Positions 23,737 through 44,329 of a stretch of 64,000 nt of DNA are shown here, one piece after another. The stretch lies in contig JAUILK010000014.1 in the NCBI GenBank assembly GCA_030433275.1, positions 1 to 64,000 on the forward strand, written 5' to 3'. Under the pieces are notes generated by a model, which saw only the letters and a program-made list of their open reading frames with translations, did not search any database and was not told the origin of the DNA. Source of the stretch: Gammaproteobacteria bacterium. Its GTDB lineage: Bacteria > Pseudomonadota > Gammaproteobacteria > Nitrococcales > Nitrococcaceae. Both the position numbers and the translations under genes were made by a program. How positions within the stretch are numbered: the first letter of the stretch is position 1; each line of letters opens with the position of its first letter.

Positions 23737-23757
23737 TGCGACAATTTGTCGCATTCC
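23737..23757. repeat. TGCGACA dyad, identical to half of the 46-bp palindrome at 41029
   Basis: TGCGACA-ATT-TGTCGCA is followed by TTCC. The full 21 bases recur exactly at 41056-41076 near the copper-type TonB locus. Here it lies 163 bases before the start of a TonB-dependent receptor gene. A dyad with a 3-base spacer is what a dimeric repressor or activator would bind; the regulator is unknown. The gap 23441-23919 contains no credible gene. Confidence 0.55.
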
Positions 23758-23878
23758 CCGCGCCCTGCCGTGCATGTAAATTTACGCGTTCGCTAAGCCC
23801 CTGGGCTCAGCTCCCCGATTTTGCAAACGAATGACATCGCACTCTTAGGGCACGACATACGTCTTCTGCCCTCGCTTT

Positions 23879-23919: not shown

Positions 23920-25998
23920 ATGAGATACCGGAAATCCCTCCTTTCCCCAATTTTTCTGTTCTTTGCGCTTCCGGCAGCCGCTCAGCCGGTACAGCTTCCC
24001 GCTGTCGTCGTTAAAGGCTCTGCGGATACCGATCGGAATTTTAGCCCGTCGCTTACATCACCGGATATCGAAGTTGCGCGGGAACGCATCGAGCGCACGC
24101 CGGGCGGCGTGGATCTGATTGATGCGGAGGAATACAAAACGGGTCGGGTATCCAATCTACAAGATACGCTCAAGTTTTCGCCCGGCGTCTATGTGCAGCC
24201 GCGCTTTGGTGCCGAGGAGTCCAGGCTTTCGATTCGCGGCTCAGGCCTCCAGCGCACCTTCCATCTGCGTGGCATTATGTTGTTGCAGGATGGCGTGCCC
24301 ATCAACAAAGCTGACGGTGGCGGTGATTTCCAGGGCCTGGAGCCGCTGGCGACACGTTATATCGAAGTCCAGCGTGGCGCGAATGCACTGCAATACGGCT
24401 CCACCACGTTGGGCGGTGCGATTAACTTTGTCACGCCTACGGGTTACGATGCCGCGCCCGCTCAGCTACGCGTCGAAGGCGGTAGCTTCAATTACCTGCG
24501 CGGGCAAGGCAGTATCGCGGGAGTCAAGGGTGCTGCCGATTATTATCTGTCGCTCAGCCACTTCTCGCAGAAGGGGTTTCGCGACCACGCCGATCAAAGC
24601 ACCCAACGTTTGTTCAGTGATGTGGGTTATCGTTTCAGCGAGAATCTCGAATCGCGCTTGTACTTCTCCGGCATTATTACCGATTCGGAACTGCCGGGTT
24701 CTCTGACCAAGTCGCAACTCAAGGATGATCCCCGGCAGGCGAACACATTCAGCGCGTCGCGCGATCAAAAGCGCGATTTCAACCGTGCACGCGTGGCCAC
24801 TAAAACCACCTACCGTTTCGGTGATTCGCGCATCGAAGGCAGCCTATTCTATACCTACGAGCACTTGCACCACCCGATCTTCCAAGTGCTGGACATCGAG
24901 TACAACGATTATGGTGCTTATCTGCGCTATATCTCAGAGGCTGAGCTATTTGGCCGGCAGAATATGTTCACGCTGGGATTTTCGCCTCAGCGCGGCACTG
25001 CGCGCGACGATCGCTTCGCCAATATTGACGGTCGGGAGGGCGCGCGCACCAACAAGCTCTTCCAGGTCGCCGAGACCTACACGCTGTTCGCCGAAAACCA
25101 GCACTACGTGATCCCCAAGCTTGCCATCGTCATCGGCGCGCAATACACGCTCGCGAGGCGTGATTTAGACGATCGCTTCCTCGACGATGGAGTGGATAAC
25201 AGCTTCGATCGCAACTACTGGAACTTCAGCCCCAAACTGGGTGCACGTTATGAGTTCACGCCGCACAATCAGATCTATGGCAACATCAGCAAGAGCTTCG
25301 AGCCGCCGAGTTTCGCTGAGCTAGCGGGCGGACCCAATGTCACGCAGAACAGCGCGCAGAAAGCCTGGACCTTCGAGATCGGCACGCGCGGCGATACGGA
25401 ATGCCGCTCCTGCCTGCCGGGTATGACGCACCTCGGTTGGGATTTGACCTATTATTACGCCGATGTGAAAGACGAATTACTCAGCCTAGTCGATCCCACG
25501 ACGGGTCTTCCGCTGGGCACCGTCAACGCGGACGACACCGTCCACCAAGGTGTGGAGGTGGGCTTTTCCCTGAAGTTCTTGAACACTCTGACCTTGCGTA
25601 ACGCTTATCTTTGGAACGATTTCCGCTTCGATGACGACCCCGTCTTCGGGGACAACAGGCTCGCCGGTATCCCGAAGCATCTTCTGAACACCGAACTCGT
25701 TTATCGGCATGCAAGCGGATTCTATGGTGGTCCGAACTTTACCTGGTCACCTTCCGACTTCGCCGTGGACCATGCCAACACCTTGTTCAACGACAATTAC
25801 GCCGTGCTGGGCTTCAAGTTGGGTTACAAGCCCAGCACACTCGAGGGGTTCAGCGGTTTTATCGATATTCGTAACATCCTCAACAAAAAATATGCGGCCG
25901 ATACTGGCGTGCTCGCCAACGCCAACGGAATGGACGCCGCCGCCTTTTTGCCCGGTGACGGTGTGTCGGCTTATGCGGGCATCGAGTGGCGCCTTTGA
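23920..25998 (+). CDS. TonB-dependent outer membrane receptor (692 aa)
   Basis: Outer membrane gated porin for a scarce ligand. It has a signal peptide (SPIFLFFALPAAA), a TonB box-like VQLPAVVVKG right after it, and a plug domain with LQDTLKFSPGVYVQPRFG, SRLSIRGSGLQ and LQYGSTTLGGAINFVTPTG. A 22-strand type barrel follows, with KSFEPPSFAELAGG and FSGFIDIRNILNKKYAAD, and the protein ends in the aromatic C-terminal strand AYAGIEWRL. The arrangement resembles the FecA/YncD(PqqU) side of the family rather than catecholate receptors. The ligand (ferric chelate, PQQ or other) cannot be read from the sequence. It stands alone, preceded by a hairpin leader and a TGCGACA dyad shared with the copper-type locus. 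Confidence 0.88.
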   Translation: MRYRKSLLSPIFLFFALPAAAQPVQLPAVVVKGSADTDRNFSPSLTSPDIEVARERIERTPGGVDLIDAEEYKTGRVSNLQDTLKFSPGVYVQPRFGAEESRLSIRGSGLQRTFHLRGIMLLQDGVPINKADGGGDFQGLEPLATRYIEVQRGANALQYGSTTLGGAINFVTPTGYDAAPAQLRVEGGSFNYLRGQGSIAGVKGAADYYLSLSHFSQKGFRDHADQSTQRLFSDVGYRFSENLESRLYFSGIITDSELPGSLTKSQLKDDPRQANTFSASRDQKRDFNRARVATKTTYRFGDSRIEGSLFYTYEHLHHPIFQVLDIEYNDYGAYLRYISEAELFGRQNMFTLGFSPQRGTARDDRFANIDGREGARTNKLFQVAETYTLFAENQHYVIPKLAIVIGAQYTLARRDLDDRFLDDGVDNSFDRNYWNFSPKLGARYEFTPHNQIYGNISKSFEPPSFAELAGGPNVTQNSAQKAWTFEIGTRGDTECRSCLPGMTHLGWDLTYYYADVKDELLSLVDPTTGLPLGTVNADDTVHQGVEVGFSLKFLNTLTLRNAYLWNDFRFDDDPVFGDNRLAGIPKHLLNTELVYRHASGFYGGPNFTWSPSDFAVDHANTLFNDNYAVLGFKLGYKPSTLEGFSGFIDIRNILNKKYAADTGVLANANGMDAAAFLPGDGVSAYAGIEWRL

Positions 25999-38315: not shown

Positions 38316-38795
38316 TCATTGTGGGGCTGAATTCGCTGCGGGTTGTGTCGATGCCTGGTGCGGATCCCCGGTTTGCGAAGGGTCGGATACAAAGCCGATG
38401 CGGCCCAATCCCGCTTTACCCGCCTCGGCCATGATTTCGGCTAGGATCTCATAGCGGGTCGAGCGGTCGGCATGCAAGTGCAACTCGGGTATTGGTACCC
38501 GTTCACCGGCAGCAAGCAAGCGCGCGCTGAGCTCGGCTCGGTCGACTGATGTGCCGTCCCAATAAAAGCGACCCTCGGCATCGATGGCGATCTGCACGTT
38601 CTCTGGTTCTACCTCGGTCGGTTGACTCGCCACCTTGGGCAGATCGATCTTCACGGCATTGGTGATCAACGGTGCGGTGACGATAAAGATCACCAGCAAT
38701 ACCAGCATGATATCGACCAATGGTATTACGTTGATTTCCGTCATGGGAGTCGTAGTGCCGCGCCCACCTTGGCCGTTAAAGCTACCAAAAGCCAT
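38316..38795 (-). CDS. exbD: ExbD, biopolymer transport protein
   Basis: Inner-membrane component of the TonB energising complex. The 159-aa protein has a short cytoplasmic start, one membrane helix with the proton-path Asp (EINVIPLVDIMLVLLVIFIV), and a periplasmic domain with LPKVASQPTEVEPENVQIAID. It ends in a Pro/Ala/Gln-rich tail. It is the last gene of pcuC-tonB-exbB-exbD with 3 bases between exbB and exbD. Confidence 0.94.
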   Translation of the reverse strand: MAFGSFNGQGGRGTTTPMTEINVIPLVDIMLVLLVIFIVTAPLITNAVKIDLPKVASQPTEVEPENVQIAIDAEGRFYWDGTSVDRAELSARLLAAGERVPIPELHLHADRSTRYEILAEIMAEAGKAGLGRIGFVSDPSQTGDPHQASTQPAANSAPQ

Positions 38796-38798
38796 GGC

Positions 38799-39566
38799 TT
38801 AGCTCCGTCGACCGGCCACGGCCGACTCCGCCACGCGCAAATGAGCAACGGCTTCAGAGGGCTGTGTCTGCCGATCGAGTTTGGCGCCAGTAACGAAGAA
38901 GGCGAAAAGATCGTGAGCGAAACCATCGAGCCGCGCCAGCATCAGTCGATTGCTACGTACCAGAAAGTTGTAGCCGAGTACCGCCGGGATGGCGACGGCG
39001 AGCCCGATGGCGGTCATGATGAGTGCCTCGCCTACCGGGCCGGCCACCTGATCCAAGCCGCCACTGCCGCTTTGGGCTATGGATATGAGCGCATGGTAGA
39101 TACCCCACACTGTGCCGAGCAGCCCGACGAAAGGTGCGGTGGAGCCGATCGAAGCGAGCAAGGTAAGCCCGGATTCGGCCCGTGCGGTCTCCTCGTCGAT
39201 GACGTTGCGCAGCGCACGGGTAAGGAAGTCGCCGGCGCTGCCGGCCTCGCTTACGCGACTCACACCGTAGCGCTCATGATGAGAACTGGCGATCACGCCA
39301 TGGTGGGCCAGGCGTGAAAATGGGTCTTTTGGGTGTTGCTCCTCCAGGTGGGCTGCCACGGCGGTGAGCGAAGGCGTATCCCAGAAAAACTCCAAAAACC
39401 GCCGACTGCGCTTGATCGCCAGCGCATTATGTACCGTCTTGGTTAGTATCAAATACCAGCTGATTAACGAGGCGAGCAGCATCAGCACCAAGATGGCCCT
39501 GGCGAGGCCATCAGCCTGCTGCAGAAAATTAATGAAGCCTAACGCGTGTTCGGTTTCCACGGCCAA
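38799..39566 (-). CDS. exbB: ExbB, MotA/TolQ/ExbB proton channel protein
   Basis: Forms the pentameric channel that surrounds ExbD. The 255-aa protein has three membrane helices: LARAILVLMLLASLISWYLI, then TLLASIGSTAPFVGLLGTVWGIYHAL and AGPVGEALIMTAIGLAVAIPAVLGYN, the last two being the family signature. It lies between tonB and exbD with 3-base gaps, so all are translated from one message. Confidence 0.94.
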   Translation of the reverse strand: MAVETEHALGFINFLQQADGLARAILVLMLLASLISWYLILTKTVHNALAIKRSRRFLEFFWDTPSLTAVAAHLEEQHPKDPFSRLAHHGVIASSHHERYGVSRVSEAGSAGDFLTRALRNVIDEETARAESGLTLLASIGSTAPFVGLLGTVWGIYHALISIAQSGSGGLDQVAGPVGEALIMTAIGLAVAIPAVLGYNFLVRSNRLMLARLDGFAHDLFAFFVTGAKLDRQTQPSEAVAHLRVAESAVAGRRS

Positions 39567-39569
39567 CCC

Positions 39570-40325
39570 TTAACTTAGCTCGAATTGAATGGGAACCAGC
39601 ACCCAAGCGGCAATAGCTTGTCCGGCTTGGTGGGCCGGCGCGAAGCGCCAATTGCGCACGGCCTCCAACGCGGCCTGATCCAGGCGGCGGTGGCCGCAAG
39701 AACGCTGCACTTTGATTTGATTGACGTGTCCGCTGGCGTTGACGTGCACCCGCAGTAGCACTTTGCCCTGTTCGCCCAAGCGCCTTGAGCGCATGGGATA
39801 GGCCGGCGGCGGATTGTCCCGATAGGCCGCCACGATATTGGGCGGGATGATCGGTGCCTCCTTGGCTGTGTCGCTGGTCGAAACCGAGCGTGGCGTCCGC
39901 TCCGGCGCTGGTTGCACCGGCGGCGATGGTTTGGGTGGCGGCTGCGCTATGGATTCCCGGCGAGGCGGGGGTTTAGGCGCTGTTTCCATCGGCACCGGTT
40001 CGGGTCGAGTTTGCGCGATAAGCGGTTTTTTCACCGGCTTGGGTCGTTTAACCGGTTCAGGCGGCCGTTTCACTTGCGGCTTGGGTTTCGGCTCCGGTTT
40101 AATCTTCGGAGCCGGCTTAGGCTGCGGGGTTGCCGGCTCAGGAGCCGGTGGTGCCTCGATGAAGCGTACCATCAGCGGCTCGCCAGCGGCGAGTTGTGGC
40201 ATCGGCTGATGCAGTTGCGTTATTGCCCATAGCAATACCGCATGCACAGCCAGCACCAACCCGGCCACGGGCCAGTTCAGTGTTGGCTGTGTAGACAGAT
40301 CAGCCCACGTTGCCATTGTAGGCAC
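39570..40325 (-). CDS. tonB: TonB energy-transducing protein
   Basis: Links the proton motive force to outer-membrane receptors. The 251-aa protein has an N-terminal anchor (WPVAGLVLAVHAVLLWAITQ) and a long Pro/Lys/Glu-rich periplasmic spacer (about 50-150, PKPAPKIKPEPKPKPQVKRP). The C-terminal TonB domain shows YPMRSRRLGEQGKVLLRVHV, IKVQRSCGHRRLDQAALEAV and RNWRFAPAH. A GTG at 40325 with GAGG about 10 bases before it was preferred to the ATG at 40316. Only one TonB is seen in the window, so it may serve both receptors here. Confidence 0.93.
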   Translation of the reverse strand: MPTMATWADLSTQPTLNWPVAGLVLAVHAVLLWAITQLHQPMPQLAAGEPLMVRFIEAPPAPEPATPQPKPAPKIKPEPKPKPQVKRPPEPVKRPKPVKKPLIAQTRPEPVPMETAPKPPPRRESIAQPPPKPSPPVQPAPERTPRSVSTSDTAKEAPIIPPNIVAAYRDNPPPAYPMRSRRLGEQGKVLLRVHVNASGHVNQIKVQRSCGHRRLDQAALEAVRNWRFAPAHQAGQAIAAWVLVPIQFELS

Positions 40326-40353: not shown

Positions 40354-40800
40354 CTACTGCGACTCGGACCAGCCTCGTGCTGCCGCTCCCTTGACTAAGA
40401 ACTCGGCGCGGCGGGTCGAGCCGTCGGCGAATTTGAGCGTTACCGCTACTTGGTCCCCCGGTTTGAGGGGGTCGTGCGGGGGCATGAGCATGATGTGATA
40501 TCCGCCGGGGGCGAAGCGTAGCTGGCTACCGACGGGTACTTCGATTGAGGCGACAGGGTGCATCTCGCCGTGGCCATCGGTCACAATGCTTCGATGCAGC
40601 ATAGCACGTGTGAAGCCTTCTGCGGTCGCTCCGGTAAGAGTGATTGTATGACCGGTACGGTTATCGAGCACGAAATAGCCGCCTGCCGGTAGATCGCCGG
40701 GCAGCAGCCGTATCCAGGCCTGATTGATGCGCACGTTTTCATTTGCAAAAACAAGTCCGGACAGAACGAGTAATACGCCTGCCACCAGGTTCTTAACCAT
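40354..40800 (-). CDS. PCu(A)C-type periplasmic copper chaperone
   Basis: Carries Cu(I) in the periplasm, usually to the CuA or CuB site of cytochrome oxidase. Signal peptide MVKNLVAGVLLVLSGLVFA. The copper-binding pattern of the family is conserved: His in AMLHRSIV, Met in GEMHPVASIEVPVG, and His-x-Met in FAPGGYHIMLMPPHDPLKPG. The 148-aa length is standard. It is the first gene of an operon with tonB, exbB and exbD, an uncommon arrangement that suggests the TonB set energises copper uptake. Confidence 0.9.
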   Translation of the reverse strand: MVKNLVAGVLLVLSGLVFANENVRINQAWIRLLPGDLPAGGYFVLDNRTGHTITLTGATAEGFTRAMLHRSIVTDGHGEMHPVASIEVPVGSQLRFAPGGYHIMLMPPHDPLKPGDQVAVTLKFADGSTRRAEFLVKGAAARGWSESQ

Positions 40801-41028
40801 CTTGAGCTCCAGGTTGCGCGCCGCAGCGTGTGGACGTTGCCGGCTGCGCCCGATTTCTCCTCAATTCACGAACGGATGCTCGTGGATCCGGCCGCCATGA
40901 GTCGGGCTGATCGTACGTTGACCAAATATTTTGTTGCGATTTTCGAGTCCGGTGTCCGACGCGTAGGGCGTGCGCCGACCAGTATTTGGAGATTCTATTA
41001 CAGGATGGCTTGTTATGGTGCATGAGTA

Positions 41029-41074
41029 AATGCGACAAATTGTCGCACCCTAGGGTGCGACAATTTGTCGCATT
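41029..41074. repeat. Perfect 46-bp palindrome built from two TGCGACA dyads
   Basis: The left half (41029-41051) is the exact reverse complement of the right half (41052-41074), centred on CCTAGG. Each half contains TGCGACA-N3-TGTCGCA, so four half-sites are present. The right half plus two bases recurs at 23737-23757. It lies 229 bases before pcuC and about 250 bases before a decayed siderophore receptor. There is no T-run at either side, so a regulator site is more likely than a terminator. Confidence 0.75.
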
Positions 41075-41321
41075 CCGATTGTTCATCTCTCATCCTATGC
41101 TTTAAGCCGTCGACCGGCTAGGCAAGCATTTTTCCCTCGGTACATCGGCACCGCCTGTTTCGGACTCTGAAGTCGGGGCCGGCGGTTGGATGTGCCGATT
41201 GTGCTGGACTGCACATGTTAGGGACAGGACGTCCCGGGCGAATTACTTTTGGCAAGCCTCCAAGGGGGCGGCTTTTTGTAGTATCCGTAAAAACATTCAA
41301 AGATCAGCACCAGGAGAGGGG

Positions 41322-42010
41322 TGATGCGCCCGCGGCCCGTTTTTTCGTCGCTGGCTCGATATTGACATTAAGCACGGTTATGCCCGCGGAACGCCCGCTC
41401 GCCGGATTGGCCGAACAAGGGGCGGTCAGCTAGAGTTGTCGGCCTTGACCGCGACAGCGCGCCCCGTATCCAGCTATAGCGTCCCCAACGCCAGTACCGC
41501 CACCAAGGCCGACATGCCGATCAGGCAAATACCGGTGTCCATCCAAGCGGTGCCGAAAGCCGTTTTGGATGACCAACAGGTCCTCGACCTAGAGGGGGCA
41601 CTGAAAACGTGAACGGAGTAGCCCCCAATTCTCTTTCGGTTATCGGGACGGATTTTTGATGCGCCGTTTTCCGACCCGCGATACGCAGCACAGGGATGGT
41701 TTCCTTAAGAAGTCTCTGGACTGGGCACGAGCTTGGGCGAGTCGGATGGCCGGGTCTGTCCGTTGGCGCTGGTGCGTTTTTTGTGAGCCAACGCGAAGAG
41801 GGTAATGCCAATACCCTCCAACTCCCTGGTTATGGGCGAGTGGATTTGATGCTCGTCTGCCCTAGATGAGTTGGCCCCAGCAGGGTAAGTGTTCGGTTCA
41901 ACGTCGAGAACCTGCTCGACAATAAATACTTCGTGGCGTCCAACTATCGGAACAACGTCATGCCCGGCGCGCCACTGACCTTCCTGGGGCAGGCGCAGGT
42001 GAGTTTTTAG
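41322..42010 (+). pseudogene. TonB-dependent siderophore receptor, decayed with internal deletion
   Basis: Pieces of a receptor lie in order in several frames. There is a signal-peptide-like start (MRPRPVFSSLA, then ILTLSTVMPAE after a shift). A plug start SVPNASTATKADMPIRQIPV and SIQAVPKAVLDDQQVLDLEG follow. LKNVNGVAP is restored by adding one A near 41610, then come FPTRDTQHRDGFLKK, LQLPGYGRVDLML and the last strand NVENLLDNKYFVASNYR...GQAQVSF with the stop at 42008-42010. About 500 residues between plug and C-terminus are missing. The order and content match FhuA/FpvA-type siderophore receptors. Its loss leaves the palindrome and TonB operon next to the copper-type receptor. Confidence 0.8.
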
Positions 42011-42166
42011 GTATTTTCAGGCGCGATAGCTTTAGCTGAGTTTTGAGTTCCGTGGCGCGCGCCGGCGCACCGAGATCGTAGGCAGTAGGCTGCTGTTCAC
42101 GCCCAGGCTGGCTTGATCGGCCCGTGTCGGTGGAATGACTCGGCTTGTAAGTTGTTCGAGGTTGTT

Positions 42167-44329
42167 ATGGCTAAACGTACGCTATTTTTTGTTCTCTTGG
42201 CGGCCGTTTGCGTCGCTCGCCCGTTGTTTGCCCAGGATGAGGAAGTGAGGTTGCCAGCGCTCGAAGTAGTGGGCCAGCCCATCGACCGTCCGGGTATCAA
42301 CCCGGAGCGGGCGCCTTTTGCTACGCCTGATACGGCCGATCTGCTGCGCCGGGCTCCCGGTGCCAACGTGAATGTAAATGGCCCCATCACGGGAATGGCC
42401 CAATATCGAGGGATGTTTGGGCAACGACTCAATGTGCGGCTGAACGGCACGCCGATCGAGCCTGGAGGCCCTAATTGGATGGACCCACCATTACAATACA
42501 TGCCCCGCAGTTTGGTGGAGTCAGTCAACGTTATACGCGGCGTTGCGCCGGTGAGTACGGGTTCGGGAATCGGCGGTTCTATCGAAGTGACGGAGAAATC
42601 CAGCCGATTTTCCGAGAGTGAAAAGTTCGAATTCCATAATGATGTTGAGGTTGCCGGTCATTCCGTCGATAGCGGTTATAACTTAGGGGGCATTCTGTCT
42701 TTAGCTAATAAACACCACCGGTTGCATTTCATAGGTAGCCGGGATGACGGTGATGATACTCGGTTTGGTGACGGCACCATCAAGGGTACCGAGTACGAGC
42801 GGAATACCTACGGCGCTGGCTACGGATTTAAAGTTGGCGATCATGAGTTTGGACTCGATTATCAACGCCTCGATGTCAACGATACCGGTACCCCTGGCTT
42901 GCCCATGGATATTAGCTTTACCGAGACGGATCGGGTAAATGGAAACTATGCCGGAGTGTGGAACGATATCAAATTCAAGGCCGGTGTCTATTATTCGAAC
43001 GTAGATCACCGAATGAACAATTTCAGTTTGCGGCAGACACCTAACTTTTGCCAACTGCCGGCGCCGTTTTGTGCGGGTGCGGATAAGCGCTTGGTTAACG
43101 CCGACAGCGATACCTTCGGTTATAGTGCCCAAGCGATTCTAGCCCTGTGGGGGGGCAGCTTGACGCTCGGGGCGGATGGTCAGCTTGCTGAACACGATGC
43201 GACCGTCCTTGATCCTGACGTGGCGCCGTTTTTCATCACGAACTTCAATGACGCCCGTAGCAATACTTATGGATTCTTCAGCGAATGGAGCAGGGCATTT
43301 CGCCAAAATTGGGAGTTGCAGCTTGGCGTACGTTACCACCGCGTGGCAATGGATGCCGGTCGGGTCGATGCGTTCCCAGCCCAACTCGCCGATATGGGGA
43401 TGGGAGGGATGCCGGCCCAAATGGTGAGCATGCTAAGGGACCGATTCAATAATGCGAACCGGGATCAGATCAACAACAATGTGGATTGGCTGGTTCAGCT
43501 TGGTTATCAAATGAATCCTTCGTTTCACTGGACTTTTGCGGTGGCACGCAAAGTTCGCTCCCCCAACTATGTCGAACGTTATATGTGGATACCGCTCGAA
43601 GTCAATGCCGGCCTTGGAGACGGGAATAACTACATAGGGAATGTAAACCTTGATCCGGAAATCTCCCGTCAGGTGGAGTTGGGGTTCGACTGGCAAACGC
43701 AGGCCGATACGGCCTATTTTTCCCCGCGCCTCTATTACCGCAGGGTAAACGATTACATTCAAGGAACGCCGGTTACGGATCCGGTGGTGACGGGCGTCAG
43801 CGCCAATGCGGCCGGGGATCCCACGCCACTGCAATTCAGTAACGTAGATGCCGCGATTTATGGCTTCGATGCGAATTTCGGCTACCGCTTTCATCCGCAA
43901 TGGCGGATCGATGGGGTGGCGAGTTATGTTCGTGGCAAACGGCGCGATATCAACGATAATTTGTATCGTATGGCTCCGCCGACGATACGGCTGGCCCTTA
44001 CTCATGAGCACGCCCAGTGGTTCGCGACGCTGGAGGGCGTGTTCGTTTATCGTCAGGAGCATATTTCTAAGACGAACACGCGGGATCCGCAGAATCCGAA
44101 CAATAGCGATAGCGAAATCCCCGGCTACGTACTAGCCAATCTCTACGGGCAATACCAATTTCCTGACCAAGGGCTCACGCTTAATCTCGGGATCAATAAT
44201 CTTCTTGACAAGAGCTACATTAATGCCTTGGGAGGGTTCAACCGGGTTTTGAACAGCGATGTTGCGCAAGGCCAGCGCCTCCCCGGGCCCGGGCGCAACT
44301 TTTTTGCGTCCGTGCGCTATAAATTTTAG
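42167..44329 (+). CDS. TonB-dependent receptor, probable copper type (720 aa)
   Basis: The start at 42167 (MAKRTLFFVLLAAVCVARPL) gives a signal peptide; GAGG lies 8 bases before it. TonB-box region EVRLPALEVVGQ. The plug has DLLRRAPGANVNVNGPITGM, QRLNVRLNGTPIEPGGPNWM and DPPLQYMPRSLVESVNVIRG, phrases shared with the OprC/NosA copper-receptor branch. The barrel contains a methionine-rich segment (DMGMGGMPAQMVSMLRDR, about 409-425) and a Cys pair in NFCQLPAPFCAG. The C-terminal strand ends FFASVRYKF. Met-rich loops suit Cu(I)/Cu(II) binding, and the nearby pcuC-tonB-exbBD operon supports this. The metal is inferred, not proven. Confidence 0.85.
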   Translation: MAKRTLFFVLLAAVCVARPLFAQDEEVRLPALEVVGQPIDRPGINPERAPFATPDTADLLRRAPGANVNVNGPITGMAQYRGMFGQRLNVRLNGTPIEPGGPNWMDPPLQYMPRSLVESVNVIRGVAPVSTGSGIGGSIEVTEKSSRFSESEKFEFHNDVEVAGHSVDSGYNLGGILSLANKHHRLHFIGSRDDGDDTRFGDGTIKGTEYERNTYGAGYGFKVGDHEFGLDYQRLDVNDTGTPGLPMDISFTETDRVNGNYAGVWNDIKFKAGVYYSNVDHRMNNFSLRQTPNFCQLPAPFCAGADKRLVNADSDTFGYSAQAILALWGGSLTLGADGQLAEHDATVLDPDVAPFFITNFNDARSNTYGFFSEWSRAFRQNWELQLGVRYHRVAMDAGRVDAFPAQLADMGMGGMPAQMVSMLRDRFNNANRDQINNNVDWLVQLGYQMNPSFHWTFAVARKVRSPNYVERYMWIPLEVNAGLGDGNNYIGNVNLDPEISRQVELGFDWQTQADTAYFSPRLYYRRVNDYIQGTPVTDPVVTGVSANAAGDPTPLQFSNVDAAIYGFDANFGYRFHPQWRIDGVASYVRGKRRDINDNLYRMAPPTIRLALTHEHAQWFATLEGVFVYRQEHISKTNTRDPQNPNNSDSEIPGYVLANLYGQYQFPDQGLTLNLGINNLLDKSYINALGGFNRVLNSDVAQGQRLPGPGRNFFASVRYKF

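Follow-up and report, generated by a model that had tools for sequence, protein, structure and literature searches.

The window analysed here is the whole 64,000-bp (64-kb) stretch from G000, a 3.41-Mb genome of the genus Nitrococcus. At 41029–41074 it contains AATGCGACAAATTGTCGCACCCTAGGGTGCGACAATTTGTCGCATT, which equals its own reverse complement across 46 of 46 bases. As the preliminary description had stated, this palindrome is perfect, has no T-runs on either side, and is placed between the pcuC-tonB-exbB-exbD operon and a decayed siderophore receptor. The pcuC start is 229 bp away, and by tblastn the receptor lacks its middle. Its halves are 17-bp dyads of 7-3-7 form, TGCGACA-N3-TGTCGCA, giving the four half-sites that had been described; these dyads, A and B, are 25 bp apart from centre to centre, with CCCTAGGG in between. 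The genes and elements concerned are:

23737–23753, no strand: second RegA-type site, a single dyad, conserved in the Nitrococcus genomes G001 and G004
23777–23782, plus strand: -10-like element TAAATT, 23 bp after the dyad at 23737
23920–25998, plus strand: TonB-dependent receptor behind the 23737 site
38316–38795, minus strand: exbD (PF02472)
38799–39566, minus strand: exbB (PF01618)
39570–40325, minus strand: tonB (PF03544)
40354–40800, minus strand: pcuC, PCu(A)C copper chaperone (PF04314)
40992–40997, minus strand: -10-like element TAGAAT, 33 bp after dyad A and directed toward pcuC; conserved in G001 and G004
41029–41074, no strand: perfect 46-bp palindrome seen in the sequence, with two RegA-type dyads
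41031–41047, no strand: dyad A, predicted pcuC-proximal operator, conserved in three Nitrococcus genomes (alignment; matrix rank 3)
41056–41072, no strand: dyad B, predicted operator proximal to the decayed receptor; degenerate in G001 and G004
41073–41078, plus strand: putative weak -35-like element TTCCGA directly 3' of dyad B, 17 bp before the -10 element
41096–41101, plus strand: -10-like element TATGCT, 23 bp after dyad B and directed toward the decayed receptor
41421–42007, plus strand: decayed TonB-dependent siderophore receptor, of which just the N- and C-terminal pieces remain (tblastn; PF00593 fragment with a stop)
42113–44329, plus strand: intact TonB-dependent receptor at 1041 bp from dyad B; similar to copper receptors, though scoring below the family cut-off

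No longer perfect palindrome occurs in the window. In 100 simulated copies of it (first-order Markov) no perfect palindrome exceeded 24 bp, and 2e-9 are expected with a length of at least 46 bp. The dyad itself is strongly over-represented in the source genome, with 8 exact copies against 0.01 expected and a few further copies carrying one mismatch; all exact dyads contain GCGAC-N5-GTCGC. When the spacer was allowed to vary, as TGCGAC-N(2-12)-GTCGCA, N5 was found in 8 of 10 cases, and the dyad spacing is therefore not free. Pairs of dyads recur, their spacing being nearly always 23–25 bp. Among 59 genomes searched, the five of Nitrococcus carry 2 to 13 copies each, and genomes of other genera carry none, except for a lone match whose spacer is GC-rich. 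The dyad is probably a 17-bp control site before metal-uptake genes, and the set of sites recurs only in Nitrococcus among the genera searched. One exact dyad (L033:8129-8145) lacks a -10 box on both sides, has no gene evidently placed behind it, and is possibly a relic.

Elsewhere in G000, dyads occur at receptor genes on contigs C12, C89 and C100, the last of which also has them at a truncated receptor and at a BNR-TlpA operon. Targets in the congeners comprise the same genes, together with regA and with pcuC followed by a DUF3450 plus ExbB-like operon. Further targets there are copC-copD with a ycnI-like DUF1775 gene, and a small His/Met-rich protein. Apart from regA, no regulator gene was seen beside any of the sites. 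Two of the receptors behind dyads pass the siderophore-receptor cut-off, while the intact receptor of the window is copper-receptor-like but below the cut-off; the regulon thus appears to span iron-type and copper uptake. Four of the seven site loci lie less than 300 bp upstream of one of the receptor genes, of which there are about eight in all (P about 1e-11), with the qualification that receptor promoters are partly duplicates of one another and are not all independent. The promoters of pcuC, BNR, ycnI-copCD and the 23737 site have unrelated flanks. The small His/Met-rich (HMHMM) protein recurs beside receptors and dyads (L013:7708-8124, L026:7558-7974, L033:7207-7689, L036:1106-1513); it is conserved, probably carries a signal peptide, matches no Pfam family, and is a candidate periplasmic metal-binding protein.

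The sites show a fixed geometry relative to the promoters. By manual count, 24 of 27 oriented promoters have a TAnnnT hexamer that begins 22 or 23 bp beyond the dyad, and the mean -10 score is +2.9 at offset 23, compared with about -5.8 (SD 1.8) across all offsets. If this hexamer is placed at -12 to -7, the dyad extends from roughly -52 to -36, against the -35 region, which itself shows weak TTnnnn hexamers at 17-bp spacing; the dyad is then centred near -44 and the second dyad of a pair near -68. The remaining three, all pcuC promoters (G000, G001 and G004), depart from this pattern; those of G000 and G001 have their -10 element a helical turn further away, at 33 bp from the dyad. Such a position would be the usual one for a class II activator, although a repressor is also compatible with it. 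Sigma-54 elements (-24/-12, GG-N10-GC) within 200 bp downstream are absent at most sites and weak at the rest. Copies at random positions, as of a small mobile repeat, had been named beforehand as evidence against a regulatory role. The genome scan did not find them: the copies are non-random and stand in fixed promoter geometry upstream of receptor and copper genes, and for that reason the implied reading as a metal-uptake-linked regulatory operator with four half-sites is upheld.

The claim that no known box fits the palindrome did not survive comparison with response-regulator sites, since the core GCGAC-N5-GTCGC is of the RegA/PrrA/RegR type. A RegA matrix was built from 33 Rhodobacter capsulatus sites having ChIP peaks and expression changes (PMC5359404). 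On the window it ranks the three dyads 1, 2 and 3 of 63,986 positions, scoring 17.66 where the maximum is 17.71. Column permutation of the matrix, repeated 2000 times, never gave the same ranking. The genome encodes a RegA (C64:44618-45154) with domains PF00072 and PF02954, and regB is just upstream. RegA is also encoded in G001, G003 and G004, and regB adjoins regA in G000, G001, G004 and at one of two copies in G003. The helix-turn-helix of Nitrococcus RegA is identical to that of PrrA (1umq) at 24 of 42 residues, including MHRRTLQR. RegB hallmarks are a GGXXNPF quinone motif and a redox-box cysteine (PMC8191878); RegB of G000 has GGATNPF, HELGTPL and GRCRQAL, and so both the quinone motif and the cysteine.

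Regulator gene and site stand side by side in G003 (Nitrococcus bin 48_S62), where two regA copies that are 85% identical (L032:3149-3709, L036:6991-8809) both adjoin paired dyads. On C213 the pair lies between regBA and a receptor gene, while on C89 it lies about 190–250 bp upstream of a solo regA that is preceded by an apparent remnant of the regB end, an arrangement that suggests autoregulation. The dyads of the pcuC and 23737 promoters are conserved between species. Counting against RegA, there is no good dyad in the regBA promoter of G000, G001 or G004, and related genera have RegA but lack these dyads, so that the wiring would be specific to Nitrococcus. In the G002 bin dyads are present and regA was not found, perhaps because the bin is incomplete.

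Beyond Nitrococcus, a scan of the genome collection for paired dyads returned Burkholderiales loci and scattered single cases. The Burkholderiales pairs are of the form GCGACA-N3-TGTCGC with 22-bp spacing (L047:6571-6607, L048:2547-2583, and similar in L050, L053, L056 and L058); those of L047 and L048 lie upstream of a TAT formate dehydrogenase, and they may be used by some other Fis-type regulator. As the genomes with such pairs before formate dehydrogenase gave no RegA match, the dyad alone is no proof of RegA. A pair near cytochrome oxidase genes in Alphaproteobacteria (L062) was left uncounted, being a direct repeat downstream of those genes. In a Thiobacillus bin (L065:2629-3238), paired dyads 27 bp apart lie upstream of a PCuAC gene in a genome that encodes RegA. 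This is the only scan case beyond Nitrococcus with both RegA and a copper target, and it provides an independent example of RegA-type sites preceding the gene for a copper chaperone. A literature search with the literal half-site strings gave primer and unrelated matches only.

Taken together, the palindrome is probably a shared, divergent RegA-type operator for metal uptake, RegA binding, activation and signal being predicted from sequence. RegA, of the RegB/RegA redox two-component system, would bind each 17-bp dyad as a dimer and would most likely activate sigma-70 promoters from directly upstream of a weak -35 region. Output on the minus strand would be pcuC-tonB-exbB-exbD and, on the plus strand, the siderophore receptor that has now decayed. 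The same dyads would control other TonB-dependent receptors, the BNR-TlpA operon and, in a congener, ycnI-copCD. Since dyads stand before genes of these kinds, RegBA would link copper and iron import across the outer membrane to the redox state of the respiratory chain, which suggests that a redox sensor controls the uptake of both metals in Nitrococcus. The element can be regarded as an operator of an ordinary kind, assigned to the RegA type with good confidence and unusual in its role and its uniformity.

Regulators other than RegA could in principle use such sites. NtrC binds 17-bp dyads (TGCACC-N5-GGTGCA), often paired, through a Fis-type helix-turn-helix, and the dyads might be operators of another regulator of this type, such as an NtrC-family sigma-54 activator. 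Dyad geometry and HTH_8 class are the same, many NtrC-like proteins are encoded in the genome, and the dyad pairs of Burkholderiales occur without RegA. Most sites, however, have a sigma-70 -10 box at a fixed 23 bp rather than any evident -24/-12 element, and the letters of the half-sites fit RegA, not NtrC, so that this assignment is improbable. A metal-sensing repressor (Fur, Zur, CopY/BlaI or an undescribed copper-starvation repressor) blocking uptake promoters when metal is ample would account for the fact that every clear target is a metal-uptake or copper gene, and, as the dyad abuts the -35 region, a repressor could act there too. Candidates for it are wanting in G000, where CopY/BlaI (PF03965) has no match and a Fur-family protein (PF01475), which would include Fur and Zur, has none up to an E-value of 10. 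The four congeners have a single Fur-family protein each, the dyad is not a Fur box, and no regulator gene but regA was seen next to the sites; repression by such a protein is accordingly rather unlikely.

That the dyads do not serve as operators, and are instead RNA hairpins or small palindromic repeats spread by mobility or amplification, is very improbable. There are several genomic copies, perfect palindromes are able to form hairpins, and some receptor promoters have visibly been duplicated together with their genes; against this, unrelated promoters share the 17-bp dyad only, with differing flanks, and the sites precede a limited set of uptake genes. Because the dyads lie upstream of the promoter elements, at a fixed distance from the -10 box, they should be untranscribed, which argues against RNA hairpins, and no T-run follows them. 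The same dyads are also found in AT-rich viral contigs of IMG/VR (L069-L080; for example L077:8265-8337), with two to five TGCGACA-WWW-TGTCGCA copies clustered upstream of the terminase gene against an expectation below 0.001. These were set aside as operators, being more hairpin-like and in some cases having longer outer complementarity.

Returning to the RegA-type operator, its perfect symmetry at this locus can be followed in the alignment with G001 and G004. Dyad A lies within 27 consecutive invariant columns and, from this conservation, is taken as the conserved pcuC operator, whereas dyad B is degenerate in both congeners. In G004, cynS directly adjoins the pcuC operon; in the window, the receptor remnant and the intact receptor sit between them. 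Dyad B probably arrived with the receptor gene that is now decayed. Because dyad A is invariant, dyad B is degenerate in the congeners and the plus-strand side has a receptor-type promoter (TATGCT 23 bp after dyad B), the palindrome is best explained by an ancestral pcuC operator next to which a receptor gene was inserted together with its own operator, the gene later decaying, in what would have been that order of events.

The absence of the Fur family is peculiar to the assembly of the window strain, as the four congeners each have a member. Near position 9336 of C31 in G000 (L126:5337), synteny with G001 (L127:4670-5237) breaks beside fur, and transposase-like genes lie on the G000 side of the break; this would reflect loss of fur at an insertion sequence or else a wrong join in the contig at that point. 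A more far-reaching reading would be that Nitrococcus has hard-wired RegB/RegA, by way of near-perfect paired operators, as the direct regulator of copper and iron import through TonB-dependent receptors. In the window strain, where an insertion-sequence junction would mark the loss of fur, RegA would for that reason be the main control that these receptors still have. In this full form the proposal is unlikely.

RegA regulons are a known kind, and what would be unusual here is a highly uniform operator dedicated to metal uptake. The Nitrococcus dyads have in common with RegA/PrrA/RegR/ActR sites of Rhodobacter and Bradyrhizobium the core GCGNC-N5-GNCGC and a spacer leaning towards A/T (PMC5359404, PMC5506826), and R. 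capsulatus RegA sites such as GTGACAATTTGTCCC (cydA) and CGGACAAAATGTCGC are two or three positions off the Nitrococcus dyad (PMC5359404). The known targets belong to photosynthesis, respiration and hydrogen use, whereas those of the Nitrococcus dyads belong to TonB-dependent uptake. RegB/RegA governs iron uptake in Methylomonas sp. DH-1, where feo, a tonB-exbBD operon and a TonB-dependent receptor are under RegA, but ChIP showed direct binding at feo only and the effects on receptor and tonB were judged indirect (PMC13274454); in Nitrococcus, by contrast, the receptor and tonB promoters themselves contain consensus sites. RegA has also been linked to copper in R. capsulatus, through a copper-bound, disulfide-linked form (PMC9147068). 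That form depends on Cys156, and this mechanism was rejected for Nitrococcus RegA, whose helix is free of cysteine (KAHGGN or QTHDGN, compared with EMCDRN in PrrA).

Enhancers of the NtrC type resemble the Nitrococcus sites in their 17-bp dyad geometry and frequent pairing, but their half-site letters differ and they serve sigma-54 promoters, of which none is evident here. If the assignment is correct, a marine nitrite oxidiser would directly link the redox state of its respiratory chain to import of the copper and iron which that chain needs. In Acidithiobacillus a search for RegA sites failed, the sites being too degenerate (PMC5506826). Known RegA sites are in general degenerate and rarely perfect dyads, while those of Nitrococcus are near-invariant, palindromic and often paired at 23–25 bp, and offer well-defined natural material for studying how RegA recognises DNA.
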